A DNA stretch of 64,000 nt. It comes from Chloroflexota bacterium. GTDB taxonomy: Bacteria > Chloroflexota > Anaerolineae > Anaerolineales > Villigracilaceae. Positions 47,811 through 57,285 of the stretch are shown one piece after another. Location of the stretch: the NCBI GenBank assembly GCA_016234485.1, contig JACRBL010000034.1, positions 1-64,000 on the forward strand, written 5' to 3'. The notes beneath the pieces are model-generated. The model searched no databases, was not told the origin of the DNA, and worked only from the letters and a program-made list of their open reading frames with translations. Every line of letters begins with the position of its first letter. Position 1 is the stretch's first letter. A program made the position numbers and the translations under genes.

Positions 47811-48188
47811 AAGGAAGCATAGAGTGACGGGAAGGAACCCTAGAACGGCTGGAAGGAACCTTAGAGTGACAGGAAGGAACTGTAGAACGGCTGGAAGGAA
47901 CCTTGGGGCGGCAGGAAGGAACCGTAGAACGGCTCGAAGGAACCATAGAGCGACGGGAAGGAACCGCAGAACGGCTCGAAGGAACCACAGAGTGACGGGA
48001 AGGAACCGTAGAACGGCTCGAAGGAACGGTAGAGTGACAGGAAGGAACCTTTGGGTGGCTTCAAGGAACCGTTGGGCGATGTCAAGGAACCTTTGAGCAA
48101 CGTCAAGGAACGGTTGAGTGACACCAAGGAACCGTTGGGCGGCTTCAAGGAACCGTTGAGCAACGTCAAGGAACCGTCGGGCAACGTC
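47811..48188. repeat. tandem array of 18 units of 21 bp
   Basis: Units begin with AAGGAA at 47811, 47832, 47853 and so on every 21 bases to 48168, with no slip, and a decayed 19th at 48189. In the first half two unit types alternate (ending AGAACGGCTGG or AGAGTGACGGG), giving a 42-bp higher period. The second half uses TCAAGGAACC variants. It fills the 535-base gap between the lipoprotein and methyltransferase genes. Because 21 is a multiple of three, long spurious frames with 7-residue repeats exist on both strands; I do not call them genes. Confidence 0.95.
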
Positions 48189-48250
48189 AAGGCGCCACTT
48201 GAAACGTGAAACGTGAAACCTGAAACCTGAAACTTAATACCTGCCACCTG
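48189..48250. repeat. short-word repeat, GTGAAAC type
   Basis: GAAACGTGAAACGTGAAACC and CTGAAACCTGAAAC words, 7-base period, directly after the 21-bp array. Confidence 0.7.
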
Positions 48251-48276: not shown

Positions 48277-49095
48277 ATGCCCCCCAACAAACTCAACAAA
48301 CTCAACGACCTCGACTCGAAAACCTGGCTGAAATTTCAAAAATCGTGGTTCATCCACAACCCGCCGCCGCGCAAAAAGGGGACACTTGTCCATCCCGCCA
48401 AATATCCCGAGACGATGGCGCAGGAATTCATCGAGTTCTTCACCAAGCGTGGACAGACCGTGCTCGACCCCATGGCAGGGACAGGTTCCACCCTCATCGC
48501 CGCCCTGCGCGCGGGACGCAATTCCTACGGCATCGAGTTGAATCCAAAGTATGCGGAGATCGCGAAGCAGATTATCTCGGATGAACGGGGTTCGCTCGGG
48601 TCTTCAATCGAAAATCTAAAATCTGAAATCGTAAATGCCGATGCTTCGCAAGCCCCCGACCTTGGACTTCCGACCTTCGACTATGTTTTGACTTCTCCCC
48701 CCTACTGGGATATGTTACGGGCGAAGGGCGCCGACACCCAAAAGAAACGCCGCTCCTCCGCCGACCTCGACGTCTTCTACTCGGACGATCCCAACGACCT
48801 CGGTAACGTGGACGATTACGAAGCCTTCCTCGCGAAGTTGGTGGAGATTTACGTACGGCTGAAACCGATCCTGCGCGAGAAAGCCTATCTGACCATCATT
48901 GTCAAGAACGTGAAAAAGGGTGGAAAGATCTATCCACTGGCCTGGGACATCGCCCGCGAGCTCGGCAAGACCTACACCCTGAAAGACGAAAAAATCTGGA
49001 TGCAGGACAACCAGTCCCTCGCGCCGTATGGATTGGGGTCAGCATGGGTGAGCAATACCTTCCATCATTATTGTTTGCAGTTTAGGAATGAGTGA
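48277..49095 (+). CDS. DNA methyltransferase (N6-adenine or N4-cytosine)
   Basis: 272 residues. Order of motifs: X-like (GTLVHPAKYPETMAQEFIEF, 35-55), I (DPMAGTGSTLIAALRAG, 64-80, with acidic partner GIELNPKYAEIA) and IV (DYVLTSPPYWDML, 135-147). SPPY allows either target base. The target-recognition part is small. Residues about 109-120 (SSIENLKSEIVN) come from an inserted word repeat between motif I and IV. It may modify an unknown site; a nuclease-like gene lies 0.8 kb downstream (49940). Confidence 0.88.
   Translation: MPPNKLNKLNDLDSKTWLKFQKSWFIHNPPPRKKGTLVHPAKYPETMAQEFIEFFTKRGQTVLDPMAGTGSTLIAALRAGRNSYGIELNPKYAEIAKQIISDERGSLGSSIENLKSEIVNADASQAPDLGLPTFDYVLTSPPYWDMLRAKGADTQKKRRSSADLDVFYSDDPNDLGNVDDYEAFLAKLVEIYVRLKPILREKAYLTIIVKNVKKGGKIYPLAWDIARELGKTYTLKDEKIWMQDNQSLAPYGLGSAWVSNTFHHYCLQFRNE
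48602..48638 (+). repeat. short-word repeat inserted in frame in the methyltransferase gene
   Basis: TCAATCGAAAATCTAAAATC, then TGAAATCGTAAAT: AAATC words, 8-9 base period, between motifs I and IV. Confidence 0.65.
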
Positions 49096-49107
49096 AGGGG
49101 ATAGATT

Positions 49108-49533
49108 ATGATCACGCTTCAAGAATTAAAATCCCACGTGGAAGAACTTGCTAAAAAGATTGACGCGCCTGCAAAATTTTTCCCAACGTTTGGAATGTCA
49201 AGGAATGATGGAACCCCAAACATTGAAATAAACGACAACGCATTTTATTACGAGGCATACGATAGAGACGCTGTTTGTATACGCCGTAGAACCACCAGAT
49301 TGCCGAAATTGTTGTATTGGATTTTTGAAAATATTACCCATCAAATGGGGTTTGCCTACGAATCAGCGCACCGCGATCCAAGCGTTCCTTTACGGAAACT
49401 GGCTTTCCAACATCAGTTAGAATTACTTGAGATATTGCAGCAGCAATGGAGAGAACTTCGCGAAAGAGAAATTGCCGAAATACTTGATAGGCATCCATAT
49501 CAATACGATTTGGTCCAATCGAAAACAGAGTGA
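49108..49533 (+). CDS. Imm63-like immunity protein
   Basis: 141 residues. The whole chain fits the Imm63 pattern: ITLQELKSHVEELAKKIDAP, FPTFGMSRNDGTPNIEI, RRTTRLPKLLYWIFENITHQ, FQHQLELLEIL and REIAEILDRHP. Imm63 proteins are predicted to neutralise toxins of polymorphic toxin systems. No toxin gene is beside it, so it may be an orphan that protects against neighbours. The gene is clearly AT-richer than those around it, a sign of transfer. The start is 12 bases after the methyltransferase stop. Confidence 0.7.
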   Translation: MITLQELKSHVEELAKKIDAPAKFFPTFGMSRNDGTPNIEINDNAFYYEAYDRDAVCIRRRTTRLPKLLYWIFENITHQMGFAYESAHRDPSVPLRKLAFQHQLELLEILQQQWRELREREIAEILDRHPYQYDLVQSKTE

Positions 49534-51033: not shown

Positions 51034-51039
51034 AATGTG

Positions 51040-51111
51040 TGACCCCGGGGGGATTCGAACCCTCAACCAATTGCTTAAGAGGCAACTGCTCTGCCATTGA
51101 GCTACGGGGCC
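51040..51111 (-). tRNA. tRNA-Lys (anticodon CTT)
   Basis: 72 bases. Acceptor GGCCCCG/CGGGGTC, D-arm GCTC/GAGC, anticodon stem GTTGC/GCAAT with loop CTCTTAA (anticodon CTT), T-loop TTCGAAT. The CCA end is not encoded. The T-stem GAGGG/CCCCC has one A-C mismatch. It reads AAG lysine codons. Confidence 0.9.
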
Positions 51112-51257: not shown

Positions 51258-54032
51258 ATGGCCCGAAGAAAAGAAGACCCCGCCGAACTTTATGCCAAAA
51301 TCGCCAGCCTCGAAAACCTGGTTCCCGAACTGGGCGAGGACGTGGTGTACCAAAAAATCGCCGAACTGCGCGCCCGCATTCAGACCATCACGGCCAGCAA
51401 TCTAAGCGCGGCCAGCGCAAAAGGGCGCGGACGGGCCGTGGGCCGCGACCAACGCCTCGAGAGCGGCGACTCGAGCGTGGCCGTCCAGGGGGATGTGAAC
51501 GACAGTTCCATCATCCACGCCCAGACGGTGGTGCTGGCCGACCGCTTCTGGCGCGGACTGAAAGCGGCCCTGCCCACCCCAGACTTAAAGCAGGCAACGT
51601 CGGCCTACCTCGCCTACCTCGTTGACCGTCACAACTACCTCAGTCTCAAAGGAATGGGCGTCTCGGACCGCGTGCCACTGCGGCTGGCCCTGCTCGACGT
51701 GTACGTGCCGCTCAAGGCGCGGCTCGAACTGCCCGAGGGCGAAACCTGGCAACGCGAACTCAGCCTGGCGGGCCGCGAACCTACCAACGAAGATCTAACT
51801 CCCCTGCGCCTCAGCGACCCCCTGTCTGTATTGGATATCCTCGCCTCACACTCTGGCGTGATCGTTCTGGGCGACCCTGGCGCGGGCAAAACCACCTTTT
51901 TGAAATATATCGCGCTCTGCCTGGCGCGCGGCGATGGCGAAAAACTCGGCTTGGGCGAACGATTGCCCATCCTCATGCCGCTGGCCGCTTACGCCAACGC
52001 TTTGCAGGTGGAAGACATCCGCCTCGACGACTTCATCGCCGAATATTTTTCCGATATCGGCTCCGACACGTCCATCGGCCCCATGCTTGAAGAGGCCCTG
52101 CGCGCGGGCCGCGCCCTCATTCTGCTCGACGGGCTCGACGAGGTGCGCGACCTCAATTTACGCAACACCGTGGTCGAGCGCGTGGTGGATTTTTACGCCT
52201 TCCATCGCCGACCGGGCAACAAGTTTGTCATCACCAGCCGCATCGTGGGTTATCGCGCCGTGCGTCCCTCCGCGGACGACCTGGTGGAGTGCACGCTCGT
52301 GGACTTCGACGACGCCGAGATCGAAGACTTCGTCCAACGCTGGACGATCGCCATCGAAAAACAGGCGCAGGGCAACACCGCCGTGGCGCGCGGCGACGCC
52401 GAACAGGACCGGCGCGAACTCCTGGACGCGGTCTACCAAAACAGCGGGGTGCGGAGGCTGGCATCCACGCCTCTGCTCTTGACCATTCTCGCGTTGATGA
52501 AGCGACAGGGCGTGAGCCTGCCCGAGCGCCGCGTTCAACTTTACGACCAATATGTGACGACCCTCCTCTCGACCTGGAACCGCGCCCGCTCCCTGAGCGG
52601 ACGTTCCCCCAGCCGCGACCTCGACGAACTACAGACCGTGAGCGTCCTCGCGCCGCTAGCCTTGTGGATGCACGAGGTCAGCCCGGGCGTGGGCCTGGTG
52701 AAGCGCGAAGACCTGGGCCGCAAACTGGAGGAACTCTTCAAAGAGCAGGGACACCCCTCCCCGTCCAATGCGGCGCGCCAGTTTTTGCAGGATGTGCGCG
52801 AGCACGCGGCCATCCTGCTCGAGCGCGGACCGGGCGAATATGGCTTCATCCATCTCACGTTTGAAGAATATCTCTCGGCGGTGGCGATCGCGCTCAAAGG
52901 ACAGGGCAACCCCGAAACCATCGCGGACATCCTGCTCAAGCACGTGGGCGAGCAGGCCTGGCGCGAAGTGACCCTGCTCACCATCGGCTTCCTCGGCGTG
53001 CGGCAACAACTCTCGAAAGTGGCAGGCGAGGTGGTGGAACGGCTGGCGAACGCGCGTGGCGGCGCGCCGGGCGAGTCCATCGTCCTGGCGGGCGACGCGG
53101 TGCTGGATACCTGGCCCGCGGGTGTGCCGCTCCAAAGCAAGGACCGCGTCGTGCAGGCGTTGGCGCCCTCCATGCAGAATCCCGACGTCCATCCAGATTT
53201 GAGGCGTCGCGCTGGACTGCTCCTCGGCCGACTCAGCTGGCGTCCGCCTGATATTGATCGGTTTATGGAAGTGGCGGCGGGAAGTTTTCTCTACGGTACG
53301 AAAAAAGAAAAATCGGAAACGCCCGAACGATTCTGGATCGGCAAGTATCCCATCACCAACGCGCAGTACGCGCGCTTCGTGCAGGCCGGCGGCTACCAGA
53401 CGCGCGCCCTGTGGAGCGAAAATGGCTGGGCCTGGCGCACGGGCAAATATGACGAGCGCACGCTCGAGACCGTGGACCGCGACTGGCTGGATCATCGTCC
53501 TCCACCGCGACGCAACGCGCCGTATTTCTGGCACAGCATCGAATTGGGGAATCCCATCTTCCCTGTGGTCGGACTCACCTGGTACGAGGCCGAGGCTTAT
53601 TGCAACTGGCTCGCGAAAAATATGGTGGCCGTACCAGAGGGCTACACCGTGCGCCTGCCGACCGGCCAGGAATGGGAACATGCCGCGCGCGGCGCGAAGG
53701 GACGCGAATATCCCTGGGGCGACGAGTTCGATAAAACCGCCGCCAACACCTGGGACAGCGATCCGGCGGATTCGGGTCTGGGCGGCACGACGGCGGTCTG
53801 CACCTTCCCGCAGGGAGTCAGTCCGCTGGGCGTGTGGGACATGAGCGGCAATGTTTGGGAATGGACGAACTCGTGGTACGATGAAGACAAGCGTTACCGC
53901 GTGGTGCGCGGCGGTTCGTGGATCGGCTATCAATGGTTCGCGCGTTCCACGTTTTGCAACTGGTCCATCCCGTTGATGTTCAACGACGATCTCGGTTTCC
54001 GCGTAGTGATTGCCCCGCAGGAAAAAGCGTAA
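51258..54032 (+). CDS. NACHT-type STAND NTPase with C-terminal FGE-like domain
   Basis: 924 residues. A helical N-terminus (about 1-50) and a Gly/Asn-rich beta-forming motif (GDSSVAVQGDVNDSSII, 70-86) precede the NACHT NTPase: Walker A GDPGAGKTT (205-213), Walker B LILLDGLDEV (287-296), sensor FVITSRIVGY. A helical repeat region follows (about 450-660), containing GFIHLTFEEYLSAVAIA, then an FGE/SUMF1-like domain (about 664-920: YGTKKEKSETPERFWIGKYP, RLPTGQEWEHAARGAKGREY, VWDMSGNVWEW, RVVRGGSW, GFRVV). NACHT proteins act as oligomerising switches in immunity and cell death; the FGE-like part is probably a ligand sensor. A partner with a similar N-terminal motif lies 77 bases downstream. Confidence 0.9.
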   Translation: MARRKEDPAELYAKIASLENLVPELGEDVVYQKIAELRARIQTITASNLSAASAKGRGRAVGRDQRLESGDSSVAVQGDVNDSSIIHAQTVVLADRFWRGLKAALPTPDLKQATSAYLAYLVDRHNYLSLKGMGVSDRVPLRLALLDVYVPLKARLELPEGETWQRELSLAGREPTNEDLTPLRLSDPLSVLDILASHSGVIVLGDPGAGKTTFLKYIALCLARGDGEKLGLGERLPILMPLAAYANALQVEDIRLDDFIAEYFSDIGSDTSIGPMLEEALRAGRALILLDGLDEVRDLNLRNTVVERVVDFYAFHRRPGNKFVITSRIVGYRAVRPSADDLVECTLVDFDDAEIEDFVQRWTIAIEKQAQGNTAVARGDAEQDRRELLDAVYQNSGVRRLASTPLLLTILALMKRQGVSLPERRVQLYDQYVTTLLSTWNRARSLSGRSPSRDLDELQTVSVLAPLALWMHEVSPGVGLVKREDLGRKLEELFKEQGHPSPSNAARQFLQDVREHAAILLERGPGEYGFIHLTFEEYLSAVAIALKGQGNPETIADILLKHVGEQAWREVTLLTIGFLGVRQQLSKVAGEVVERLANARGGAPGESIVLAGDAVLDTWPAGVPLQSKDRVVQALAPSMQNPDVHPDLRRRAGLLLGRLSWRPPDIDRFMEVAAGSFLYGTKKEKSETPERFWIGKYPITNAQYARFVQAGGYQTRALWSENGWAWRTGKYDERTLETVDRDWLDHRPPPRRNAPYFWHSIELGNPIFPVVGLTWYEAEAYCNWLAKNMVAVPEGYTVRLPTGQEWEHAARGAKGREYPWGDEFDKTAANTWDSDPADSGLGGTTAVCTFPQGVSPLGVWDMSGNVWEWTNSWYDEDKRYRVVRGGSWIGYQWFARSTFCNWSIPLMFNDDLGFRVVIAPQEKA
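53898..54014 (+). other. DGR variable-region-like C-terminus
   Basis: The last 38 codons encode RVVRGGSW, then about 22 residues rich in aromatic and small residues (IGYQWFARSTFCNWSIPLMF), then NDDLGFRVV. In diversity-generating retroelement targets the varied residues lie exactly between RGGSW and GFRV. Codons such as ATC, GGC, TAT, TTC, TCC and AAC are the kind produced from AAC/AAT template codons by adenine mutagenesis. No template repeat or reverse transcriptase is in the window. Confidence 0.55.
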
Positions 54033-54040
54033 CGCACACT

Positions 54041-54054
54041 TGCCCGGGCGGGCA
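54041..54054. promoter_or_regulatory. GC hairpin 9 bases after the NACHT stop
   Basis: TGCCC, GGGC loop, GGGCA (or a 6-bp stem with a 2-base loop). DGR targets often carry a GC hairpin just after the variable region; this could be one, or a simple spacer structure. Confidence 0.4.
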
Positions 54055-54109
54055 GCGCCAGGGAAATTTATTTTGCGTGACACGCTACAGAATCAAAGGA
54101 GAAAAAAAT

Positions 54110-54526
54110 ATGGCGAAGAAAAATAAATCCGATCAAGACTCTGTTGGCCGCGACCGAATCGTTTCAGGCGGCGCGGGGAGCGTGGTCATCGGCGGGAACG
54201 CCACCAACAACACGATCATCGCGGGCGACAACAACCGCGTCAACGCCTCGTCCAAATTCAAGGAAATCTACCAGCAGGTGGACGAACGCCGCGATCTCAC
54301 CGGCAACGATAAGACCGATTTGAAATCTGAATTACAGGCTTTCGAGTCCGACGATAAGAAAGGCCCCGAAGCCAATGAGGGCTTCCTTGCCCAGCGTCTG
54401 CGTAATGTTAAGCGCATCGCGCCCGACATCCTCGAAGTGGCCACGGCCACCATCTTGAATCCTGTGGCAGGATTTGGGGTGATTGCCAAGAAGGTCGCAG
54501 AAAAGATGAAGGCAGAGGCGAAATAG
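54110..54526 (+). CDS. small partner of the NACHT protein, Gly/Asn motif plus helical C-terminus
   Basis: 138 residues. The N-terminus has VGRDRIVSGGAGSVVIGGN and NTIIAGDNNRV (about 12-42), resembling VGRDQRLESGDSSVAVQGDV in the NACHT protein upstream. The C-terminal half is helical: FKEIYQQVDERRDLTGNDK, FLAQRLRNVKRIAPDILEVA and an amphipathic ILNPVAGFGVIAKKVAEKM. This tail could insert in a membrane or bind a partner. I know this type of small protein from beside NACHT/TIR genes but no named function. The ATG at 54110 has AAAGGAG 8 bases upstream; the longer frame is rejected. Confidence 0.8.
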   Translation: MAKKNKSDQDSVGRDRIVSGGAGSVVIGGNATNNTIIAGDNNRVNASSKFKEIYQQVDERRDLTGNDKTDLKSELQAFESDDKKGPEANEGFLAQRLRNVKRIAPDILEVATATILNPVAGFGVIAKKVAEKMKAEAK

Positions 54527-54741: not shown

Positions 54742-55674
54742 ATGCACCCTTCCCCCCTTCTTCTTCACATTCCCGATGGATTTCTAAGCATCATCGTCGC
54801 GGTCGTTTGTTGGGTTATCACCGCCAGCCTGCTGGCAATCGCCATCCGCAAAACGAATGAATCCCTGGGCGAAAAACAAATTCCCTTAATGGGCATCATG
54901 GCCGCCTTCATCTTCGCCGCGCAGATGATTAACTTCCCCGTCGCGGGCGGGACGTCCGGTCACTTGCTCGGCGGCGCGCTGGCGGCGATTCTGCTCGGAC
55001 CGTGGGCCGCCATGCTCGTGATGACGGCCGTCATCGCCGTGCAGGGCCTGCTCTTCCAGGACGGCGGACTCGTGGCGATGGGCGCCAACATCCTCAACAT
55101 GGGACTCATCACCGCCGCCATTGGCTACGGATTCCACCGCGCCGTTCTCACGCAGTCGCGCCGCGTCAAGTTGACCGTGGCGGGCCTCGCGGCCTGGACT
55201 TCGGTGATGGCGGGCGCGCTCGCCACCACGCTCCAACTCTGGTTGAGCGGCACAGCCAAACTCGGCATCATCCTGCCCGCCATGCTCACCGTCCACGCGT
55301 TGATTGGGTTGGGCGAAGCGTTCATCACCGTCGCGGCGCTCGGCTTCATCATGCAGACGCGTCCCGACCTGCTGGGCGAATCGTCCGCATCGGCGCTCGG
55401 CGGCAAGGGCTGGATTCTGGCGGGCATCGCCCTCACGATGATCGTCATCCTGCTCGCGCCGTTCGCCTCCACCAACCCCGACGGGCTGGAGCGCGTGGCT
55501 ACCGACCTGGGCTTCCTGCAAAGCGGACAGTCCGCGCCCTTTGAAATTATCCCCGATTACACCGTGCCGATCCTGGGCGGGACGCCGCTCTCCACCGTCG
55601 TAGCGGGAGTCATCGGCGTGATCGTGGTGGGGCTGGTCATCGGCGCAACGGCAATTGGGTTGAGGAAGAAATAA
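54742..55674 (+). CDS. cbiM: cobalt/nickel ECF transporter S component CbiM with PDGLE domain
   Basis: 310 residues with about seven to eight membrane helices. Substrate-binding motifs are HIPDGFLS near the N-terminus and GGTSGHLLGGALAAILLGPW. The C-terminal quarter (STNPDGLERVATDLGF plus a final helix) is the CbiN/PDGLE-like part fused on. It takes up Co2+ or Ni2+ with CbiQ and CbiO downstream. Oddity: family members start MHIPDG, but here 7-8 residues (MHPSPLLL) precede HIPDG. The metal is not decided by sequence. No cobalamin riboswitch is seen upstream. Confidence 0.93.
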   Translation: MHPSPLLLHIPDGFLSIIVAVVCWVITASLLAIAIRKTNESLGEKQIPLMGIMAAFIFAAQMINFPVAGGTSGHLLGGALAAILLGPWAAMLVMTAVIAVQGLLFQDGGLVAMGANILNMGLITAAIGYGFHRAVLTQSRRVKLTVAGLAAWTSVMAGALATTLQLWLSGTAKLGIILPAMLTVHALIGLGEAFITVAALGFIMQTRPDLLGESSASALGGKGWILAGIALTMIVILLAPFASTNPDGLERVATDLGFLQSGQSAPFEIIPDYTVPILGGTPLSTVVAGVIGVIVVGLVIGATAIGLRKK

Positions 55675-55703
55675 AACGCAAAACGTAAAACGTGAAGCGT
55701 AAT
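55672..55703. repeat. short-word repeat, AAAACGCAAAACGTAAAACG type
   Basis: AAAACG words with a 9-10 base period between cbiM and cbiQ, of the same style as 41750-41807. Confidence 0.65.
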
Positions 55704-55707
55704 CATT

Positions 55708-56526
55708 ATGCATGCAAATCTCTTTGATCGTTATCACCACACTGAAGGGCCTCTCCATAGACTCGAAGCGCGCGTCAAAGTTGTTTTGACGGTTGCGTTC
55801 ATCGTCTCGAACGCGTTGTTACCCGATGGCGCGTGGACGGCTTTTGGGCTGGGATGGCTTCTCGTTCTGGCGGCCAATGCGCTTTCGCTGCTTGGGTTGG
55901 GCTTCACGCTCAAACGCTCGCTCATCGCGCTTCCGTTTGCGCTGGCCGCGATCTCATCCATTTTTTCCACGCCGGGGAATCCACTTTCCTCGTTTCCATT
56001 TCTCGGCATGGAACTCATCGTCACCGACGCGGGTCTGCTTCGGTTTGCCAGCATCCTCGTCCGCTCGTGGCTTTCGGTGCAGGCCGCCATTTTGCTCGTG
56101 GCCGTGACGACCTTTCCCGATCTCATCCACGCGCTCGAACATTTGCGCGCGCCGAAGATCATCACCACCGTCATCGCGTTTTTGTATCGCTATCTTTTCG
56201 TGCTGAGCGACGAGGTCATCCGTCTGCTGAGGGCCAGGCAAGCGCGTAGCGCGACCTTGCCCCCCTCCGTCTCCCCCCATTTTCCGCGGAAATGGGGGGA
56301 GAGAAAGAGGGGGGTGGTGTGGCGCGCCAAAGTCGCGGGGAACATGGTCGGTCAACTCTTTTTGCGAAGTTACGAACGAAGCGACCGCATCTACAATGCC
56401 ATGCTGGCGCGCGGCTATCAGGGACAGATCCGCACCCTGCATCCGCACACGCTCACGCGCCGCGATTGGACGATCGGCGCGCTGACGGTTTTGCTCATCC
56501 TATCTCTGCAATTGATCGGACGTTAA
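55708..56526 (+). CDS. cbiQ: ECF transporter transmembrane component CbiQ
   Basis: 272 residues with about five membrane helices. It starts with HTEGPLHRLEARVKVVLTVA (DPRxK-like region) and carries the coupling motif YNAMLARGYQG; the first EcfT coupling helix contains the arginines around RLLRARQAR. Oddity: residues about 185-202 (LPPSVSPHFPRKWGERKRGV) come from a C/G-tract hairpin repeat inserted in the cytoplasmic loop between coupling helices. cbiO begins immediately after the stop, so the two are translationally coupled. Confidence 0.9.
   Translation: MHANLFDRYHHTEGPLHRLEARVKVVLTVAFIVSNALLPDGAWTAFGLGWLLVLAANALSLLGLGFTLKRSLIALPFALAAISSIFSTPGNPLSSFPFLGMELIVTDAGLLRFASILVRSWLSVQAAILLVAVTTFPDLIHALEHLRAPKIITTVIAFLYRYLFVLSDEVIRLLRARQARSATLPPSVSPHFPRKWGERKRGVVWRAKVAGNMVGQLFLRSYERSDRIYNAMLARGYQGQIRTLHPHTLTRRDWTIGALTVLLILSLQLIGR
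56260..56314 (+). repeat. C/G-tract hairpin repeat inserted in frame in cbiQ
   Basis: CCCCCCTC and CCCCCCATTTTCC pair with GGAAATGGGGGG and GAGGGGGG. It is the same kind of element as 30757-30850. Confidence 0.8.
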
Positions 56527-57285
56527 ATGCCCATCACGCACCCCTCTTTACCAGTCACTATGCCCGAAACCTGCGACGGCGATATTTTGCGCGTGCGCGA
56601 TTTGAAATTTAATTATCCCGACGGACACGCGGCATTGCACGGCGTTTCGTTCCAACTCTGCGAAGGCGACAAGGCCGCGCTGGTGGGGCCGAACGGCGCG
56701 GGCAAATCCACGCTGATGTTGCACCTGAACGGAATTTTGGAGGGCCGCGGCGAGATCGAAGTGATGGGCCTGCGCCTCACGCGCGACAATCTGCCGACCA
56801 TCCGCTCGATGGTGGGCCTCGTCTTCCAAAATCCCGACGATCAACTCTTCTCGCCAACGGTGTTCGAGGACGTGGCCTTCGGCCCGCTTCACATGGGCCT
56901 GCCCGAGGACGAAGTCCGCGTCCGCGTGACCGAGGCCTTGGCCGCCGTCCGAATGAGCGCGTACGCCGACAGGTTGTCGCATCACCTGAGCGTCGGCGAA
57001 AAGAAGCGCATCTCGATTGCGACGGTTCTCTCGATGCGCCCGTCCCTGCTGGTGTTGGACGAACCGTCCGCAGGTCTCGACCCGCGCGCGCGGCGGACGT
57101 TGATTCATTTATTGCGCGACCTGCCGATCACGATGCTCGTCTCCACGCACGATATGGCGCTGGTGAAAGAATTGTTCCCGCGCACGATCATCATGGACGA
57201 GGGTCGCATCGTCGCGGATGGGTTGACGATGGAGATTTTGGACGATGAGAAGTTGCTGGAGGCGCATGGACTCGAGAGAGGGTAG
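56527..57285 (+). CDS. cbiO: ECF transporter ATPase CbiO
   Basis: 252 residues. Walker A VGPNGAGKSTLMLHL, Q-loop VGLVFQNPDDQLFSPTVFED, signature LSVGEKKRISIATV, Walker B LLVLDEPSAGLDP and H-loop LVSTHDMALV are all present. It powers CbiM-CbiQ. LSVGE instead of LSGGQ is a common CbiO variant. The ATG directly follows the cbiQ stop. Confidence 0.96.
   Translation: MPITHPSLPVTMPETCDGDILRVRDLKFNYPDGHAALHGVSFQLCEGDKAALVGPNGAGKSTLMLHLNGILEGRGEIEVMGLRLTRDNLPTIRSMVGLVFQNPDDQLFSPTVFEDVAFGPLHMGLPEDEVRVRVTEALAAVRMSAYADRLSHHLSVGEKKRISIATVLSMRPSLLVLDEPSAGLDPRARRTLIHLLRDLPITMLVSTHDMALVKELFPRTIIMDEGRIVADGLTMEILDDEKLLEAHGLERG

Follow-up and report, generated by a model that had tools for sequence, protein, structure and literature searches.

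A conserved NACHT-FGE and TCAD2 gene pair of Chloroflexota carries a matched, probably amyloid-like beta motif

We analysed a 64,000-nucleotide stretch of DNA from a Chloroflexota bacterium (assembly GCA_016234485.1, contig JACRBL010000034.1), hereafter called the window, and all coordinates are positions within it. Two adjacent forward-strand genes encode a 924-residue STAND NTPase of NACHT-FGE architecture (51258-54032) and a 138-residue protein with a C-terminal TCAD2 domain (54110-54526). Both proteins carry a short, homologous motif near their N-termini, and the pair recurs in other genomes of the order. With moderate confidence, we read it as a two-gene STAND signalling unit, in which the receptor and the motif-TCAD2 protein would be joined through templating of a homotypic beta motif that is probably amyloid-like. 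An initial annotation of this DNA had proposed a conflict unit of this kind with the FGE-like domain as sensor and the small protein as effector, and its coordinates, protein lengths, the 77-base gap between the genes (54033-54109) and the quoted peptides all proved exact. A Shine-Dalgarno-like element, AAAGGAGA (54093-54100), was read directly from the sequence ahead of the second gene.

The shared motif is rich in Gly, Asn and Asp and spans ~22 residues in both proteins, i.e., residues 67-88 of the receptor (LESGDSSVAVQGDVNDSSIIHA; 51456-51521) and residues 18-39 of the partner (VSGGAGSVVIGGNATNNTIIAG; 54161-54226). As initially annotated, it is preceded in both by VGRD, which we found at residues 61-64 of the receptor (51438-51449) and residues 12-15 of the partner (54143-54154). 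Taken from the window pair alone, the likeness is modest: when the letters of the small protein were shuffled 1000 times, 8 shuffles reached the Smith-Waterman score of 52, as one might expect if low-complexity Gly/Asn/Asp-rich linkers had simply converged. TCAD2 relatives gathered in the same order and in a named genome collection alter this picture. Against such convergence stands the position-specific match across 35 pairs of the core family, whose ungapped motif-to-motif alignments scored 48.5 on average compared to -12 (sd 2) for letter shuffles, ~29 standard deviations higher. Alignment of the NACHT-side and TCAD2-side motifs by hhalign gave a probability of 95.8% and an E-value of 7.9e-9. 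The consensus of the 35 pairs reads I-x-A-G-D-x-S-I-A-V-G-G-x-V-x-D-S-x-I-I-x-G on the NACHT side and L-S-A-G-D-G-S-I-V-I-G-G-N-V-x-G-S-N-I-V-x-G on the TCAD2 side. Moreover, the VGRD state agrees in all 41 pairs examined (both partners carry it in 8, neither does in 33, and one alone in 0; the count ignores kinship). In a genus relative (L079), the NACHT side shows a degenerate VGRD (AGRG) and the other side has none. Together with the pair-specific sequences of divergent systems described below, these data led us to reject convergence, which we regard as highly improbable. The motif near both N-termini is real and better supported than initially stated, and a lack of alignment beyond composition, which the initial annotation had named as grounds for abandoning its reading, was not what the 35-pair shuffles and hhalign revealed.

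A motif-profile search of the 4.46 Mb genome returned the two window genes as best matches (E-values of 8e-13 and 8e-10; both are part of the profile), and the third match had an E-value of 3e-4. A similar N-terminal motif is carried by an 830-residue AAA/TPR protein (G000:C18, L229:1816-4308; E-value 3e-4) and by a 272-residue protein with a likely transmembrane stretch (G000:C31, L230:4405-5223; E-value 0.14) of the same genome. These two proteins are possible cross-talk partners.

The initial annotation had further expected the two families to co-occur in other genomes, which was borne out in both directions. Of 47 TCAD2 loci, upstream DNA was sufficient in 41, and a NACHT-FGE gene lies directly upstream in 36 of the latter. 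One further locus (L096:3891-4655) is preceded only by a 254-residue FGE fragment, perhaps a decayed NACHT-FGE gene. Conversely, 400 genomes of the order yielded 37 NACHT homologues (at least 63% identity). Cross-reading the two hit lists by coordinates placed a TCAD2 gene just downstream of 35 of them, and the remaining two are at contig breaks. A motif-matched pair is also present in a Candidatus Krumholzibacteriota assembly (L086), and its occurrence outside the phylum could be due to transfer or misbinning. A motif-TCAD2 gene without NACHT-FGE (L104:4968-5378) adjoins FIST and GAF/histidine-kinase proteins and lies upstream of cbiMQO-like genes.

The receptor consists of a helical N-terminal segment, the motif, a NACHT domain and a C-terminal FGE-like domain. 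Pfam assigned the NACHT NTPase to residues 201-363 (PF05729, E-value 1.9e-12; 51858-52346), in which Walker A (GDPGAGKTT) and Walker B (LILLDGLDE) are both intact, and the FGE-sulfatase (FGS) domain of the C-type-lectin-fold class to residues 669-917 (PF03781, E-value 6.2e-52; 53262-54008). The receptor thus has the STAND-FGS architecture, a NACHT/STAND NTPase fused to a C-terminal FGS domain. Residues 1-190 had no Pfam match. An AlphaFold2 monomer model (mean predicted local distance difference test score, pLDDT, of 59) places helices at residues 8-19, 22-25 and 27-49, forming a coil-like segment (residues 8-49; 51279-51404), and leaves the motif as an unstructured stretch (pLDDT 26-39) between this segment and the NTPase. 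Within the core family, mean column entropy reaches its maximum for the protein in residues 1-60 (1.94 bits), compared to 0.67 for FGE, 0.52 for NACHT and 0.92 for the motif, which therefore appears as a conserved island adjoining a variable coil.

Inspection of the FGE-like domain showed Gly890 and Ala895 at the sites expected for the catalytic cysteine pair after GGS (GGSWIGYQWFA; aligned by eye), and Cys900 of the receptor is not conserved. The best match of the domain in the PDB is 1y4j, the inactive paralogue SUMF2. Since it lacks the catalytic cysteines at the expected sites and most resembles SUMF2, a sensor role of this domain is plausible, and we regard it as a candidate ligand sensor of predicted function. 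More distant NACHT-FGE genes (61% and ~42% identity; L234, L236, L238 and L240) adjoin a reverse transcriptase of the type found in diversity-generating retroelements (DGRs), and the accessory protein bAvd was confirmed in L240. Among the neighbours inspected at the core loci we saw no DGR, a survey in which the window's own genome was not searched for reverse transcriptase. Because the FGE domain is conserved in the core family and reverse transcriptases were seen only near the more distant relatives, the core family appears to be a branch whose sensor is fixed. The weak matches returned by PADLOC, NCBIfam and PHROGs include a partial EruA match of the receptor, which was discarded.

The partner protein begins with a Lys-rich stretch, followed by VGRD, the motif and an all-helical domain. 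Its C-terminal 87 residues are TCAD2 (PF19971, ternary complex associated domain 2; residues 49-135, 54254-54514), as judged from an E-value of 1.2e-10 and 41.9 bits compared to a curated cut-off of 27. The model shows five helices (residues 51-59, 65-83, 90-103, 105-116 and 124-137; pLDDT 75-84), while the motif is unstructured and of low confidence. Pfam detected no enzymatic domain in the protein. The TCAD2 fold had no clear relative in the PDB, where helical-bundle matches at Z-scores of ~7 or below are not meaningful, and we found no solved structure of TCAD2 or of the motif. Viral contigs contained no relative of the 138-residue protein, and PADLOC, NCBIfam and PHROGs assigned no system to the pair, returning weak matches only; among these, one of the partner to PDC-M14B (E-value 0.004) was dismissed. 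The best PF19971 matches of the phylum are long proteins with open frames of ~460-515 residues. Elsewhere, TCAD2 is found C-terminal to TIR, CHAT and Roc-COR domains. As this domain is the only one of the small protein, the latter may act as an adaptor and not as the executioner.

To compare motifs between divergent systems, we took 47 TCAD2 proteins of less than 60% mutual identity and aligned the stretch ahead of TCAD2 with the immediate same-strand neighbour, employing the neighbours of other loci (~65) as controls. The own neighbour was matched at p<0.05 in 13 of the 47 proteins (Fisher combined 1.6e-6), and in seven (L032, L033, L056, L083, L123, L179 and L202) it scored better than all ~65 non-cognate controls. 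The matched partners include NACHT-FGE, nSTAND1, TPR-transmembrane and AAA-TPR proteins. The motif sequence varies greatly between these systems yet matches that of the neighbouring gene, as exemplified by GDITASGGNVNIAGGDIHQ with GNITASGGNVNLAVGDIYQ in L123 and NAIGNITASGNARVSV with NAIGIINADGQAVIKI in L056. The genome of the window itself contains a second TCAD2 gene (G000:C35, L032:10065-12044); the TPR-transmembrane protein encoded after it has a matching motif that belongs to another sequence type.

Furthermore, the protein in the partner slot is exchangeable. The slot usually holds motif-TCAD2 alone. TIR-motif-TCAD2 proteins are found next to NACHT-FGE in L083 and, with other matched partners, in L179, L181 and L202, and CHAT-motif-TCAD2 proteins occur in L046 and L111. 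L181 encodes a relative of the L032 TPR-transmembrane protein, and the partner there carries the added TIR domain. In L235, a 61% identical NACHT-FGE gene adjoining cbiQ/cbiO (identified from open reading frames, ORFs) lacks TCAD2 and neighbours a caspase instead. The last 45 residues of this caspase contain a motif that matches the NACHT N-terminus with a Smith-Waterman score of 68; the shuffle maximum was 41 and the best of 41 other NACHT-FGEs scored 60. A C-terminal partner motif was seen only in this caspase variant, whose layout matches amyloid signalosomes described in bacteria and fungi (PMC7889193). Since the partners in these relatives are TIR- or caspase-bearing proteins with a matching motif, we place the small protein in the effector slot and infer that the motif is the connector. 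The effector role assigned to it initially is therefore upheld as a position; with only a helical TCAD2 domain, it could also be filled by an adaptor. The reappearance of the matched peptide in related pairs whose partners differ suggests that it serves as a plug connecting sensor to effector.

The motif might alternatively be a static docking element, both copies forming rungs of one small beta-solenoid and TCAD2 being a permanent subunit of the NACHT complex, i.e., a regulator, scaffold or inhibitor. In agreement with this, some TCAD2 proteins have at least two tandem, solenoid-like motif units (GGGAYVGGNVNTGGGDFVGRDK plus the core unit), TCAD2 takes the C-terminal position expected of an accessory domain in CHAT and Roc-COR proteins, and the small protein is without an enzymatic domain. 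Conversely, the motif is short and predicted to be unstructured in each monomer, and it recurs with unrelated effectors and at either protein end, as transferable amyloid-type motifs do. We thus consider permanent docking a rather unlikely, though serious, alternative to signalling through a templated motif.

According to this signalling model, the FGE-like domain would bind a ligand, and ATP-driven oligomerisation of NACHT would gather several N-terminal beta motifs. The resulting cluster could recruit the same-type motif of the motif-TCAD2 protein and template it, so that both join in one cross-beta or beta-solenoid stack, after which the concentrated TCAD2 domains, or further effectors bound by TCAD2, would act, possibly leading to growth arrest or death. 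While domains, gene pairing, motif homology, pair-specific matching and partner exchange can be read from the sequences, oligomerisation, templating, an amyloid stack and this outcome are steps that we infer, and a link to phages or conflict is drawn by analogy.

Several observations weigh against this model. The motif peptides matched no Pfam amyloid family even at an E-value of 10, RHIM, NACHT_sigma, Ses_B and HET-S being among those covered, so that the comparison with known amyloid motif families envisaged at the outset was negative for the families in Pfam. Roughly half of the diverse TCAD2 proteins lack a matching motif in the gene next to them, and many of the unmatched ones sit beside proteins with unrelated domains (ABC transporter, FIST, DUF4143 and others). 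In the close core family, a motif resembles its cognate no more than it does non-cognate ones (p 0.11), and we therefore claim specificity only between systems. Finally, two features are unusual for an arms-race sensor: the FGE domain is strongly conserved, unlike that of its DGR-diversified relatives, and the pair lies upstream of cbiMQO in 19 of the 35 core loci with enough sequence (L078-L124). Stable synteny and FGE conservation of this kind speak against a fast arms-race role. Of the overall reading given initially, the conserved two-gene unit and a motif homologous beyond composition stand, whereas the effector may be an adaptor and the conflict link is one of analogy.

In the window, cbiM, cbiQ and cbiO, encoding a cobalt/nickel transporter, follow directly downstream on the same strand (54742-57285). 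Such a stable position points to vertical inheritance and would suit a resident immune module, and a link to metal stress is conceivable. The unit could accordingly be a resident stress or metal-homeostasis module tied to the transporter rather than a defence system, as would fit the cbiMQO neighbourhood shared by the window and those 19 loci and NACHT and FGE domains that are ~70% identical across the order without a hypervariable patch. However, cbiMQO is not nearby in the other 16 of the 35 loci, ~90% of the order's genomes lack the pair (NACHT is present in 43 of 400), and the neighbours employed by close relatives are caspases, TIR proteins or DGRs, as is typical of conflict systems. We thus judge a metal module to be improbable. 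A lipoprotein-like gene lies between the pair and cbiMQO in L104 and L178, and L104 has in addition a gene with a Fur-like start (by eye). On its other side, the window pair is preceded by an antisense tRNA-Lys(ctt) (51039-51111, reverse strand), which is in the same place only in the close relatives L078 and L080. Further upstream are an N6_N4_Mtase DNA methylase gene and then one for an Imm63 immunity-protein-domain protein (48277-49533), and just before the methylase gene lie highly repetitive short ORFs with GRN repeats on both strands (47824-48247).

Bacterial amyloid signalling sequence (BASS) motifs and NLR-Bell pairs were reportedly described by Dyrka et al. in 2020. In BASS and NLR-Bell systems, adjacent genes share a short Gly/Asn-rich, strand-forming motif in the STAND N-terminus and the partner, with motif families differing by pair (PMC7889193). 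The window pair resembles them in its adjacent receptor and partner genes with a common short motif and in the TIR and CHAT partners found elsewhere; it differs in its helical domain TCAD2 and in the motif being N-terminal to it, whereas Bell pairs carry theirs C-terminal to Bell. The motifs were compared by description, and ours may belong to one of the BASS1-10 families. STAND NTPase-FGS conflict systems with effector-associated domains (EADs; Kaur et al. 2021, PMC8195603; Dore et al. 2024, PMC10907252) likewise combine NACHT with a C-terminal FGS/FGE domain, an N-terminal homotypic element common to the neighbouring effector, and a frequent though not obligatory association with DGRs, which in our case stand beside the more distant relatives. 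Their element is a folded alpha-helical EAD, whose place in the window receptor appears to be taken by the ~22-residue beta motif, and they differ from the core family in its conserved FGE without a DGR seen alongside; the text of both papers is without mention of TCAD2. Fungal NWD2/HET-S signalosomes (PMC7889193, PMC4344463) also pair an adjacent NACHT receptor bearing an N-terminal motif with a small helical partner carrying the same motif, yet neither motif nor helical domain shows detectable homology to ours. None of the ORFs flanking the pair is annotated as MoxR, vWA or the third component of the vWA-MoxR ternary system, which unites the three in one operon; no search for MoxR or vWA was made elsewhere in the genome. 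In the literature searched, which falls short of all journals, we found no description of this motif combined with TCAD2 or of a stand-alone motif-TCAD2 protein as a STAND partner. Taken together, the unit is a variant of NLR/amyloid-motif pairs and STAND-FGS systems that is new in its combination of motif and TCAD2.

More speculatively, and at a strength at which we would call it doubtful, the motif could represent a large, unrecognised family of pair-specific bacterial amyloid signalling sequences, mainly in Chloroflexota, that connects several STAND classes (NACHT, nSTAND1 and TPR-transmembrane) to TCAD2, TIR, caspase or CHAT partners, with TCAD2 as a new cell-arresting executioner. The locus gives context to TCAD2, a hitherto unexplained domain. 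Moreover, it belongs to a series of natural receptor-partner pairs whose connector peptides vary yet stay matched and whose effectors are exchangeable. This series allows testing how short beta motifs encode specificity, and whether cross-beta templating is a general means of coupling bacterial STAND receptors to effectors beyond the BASS/Bell set.

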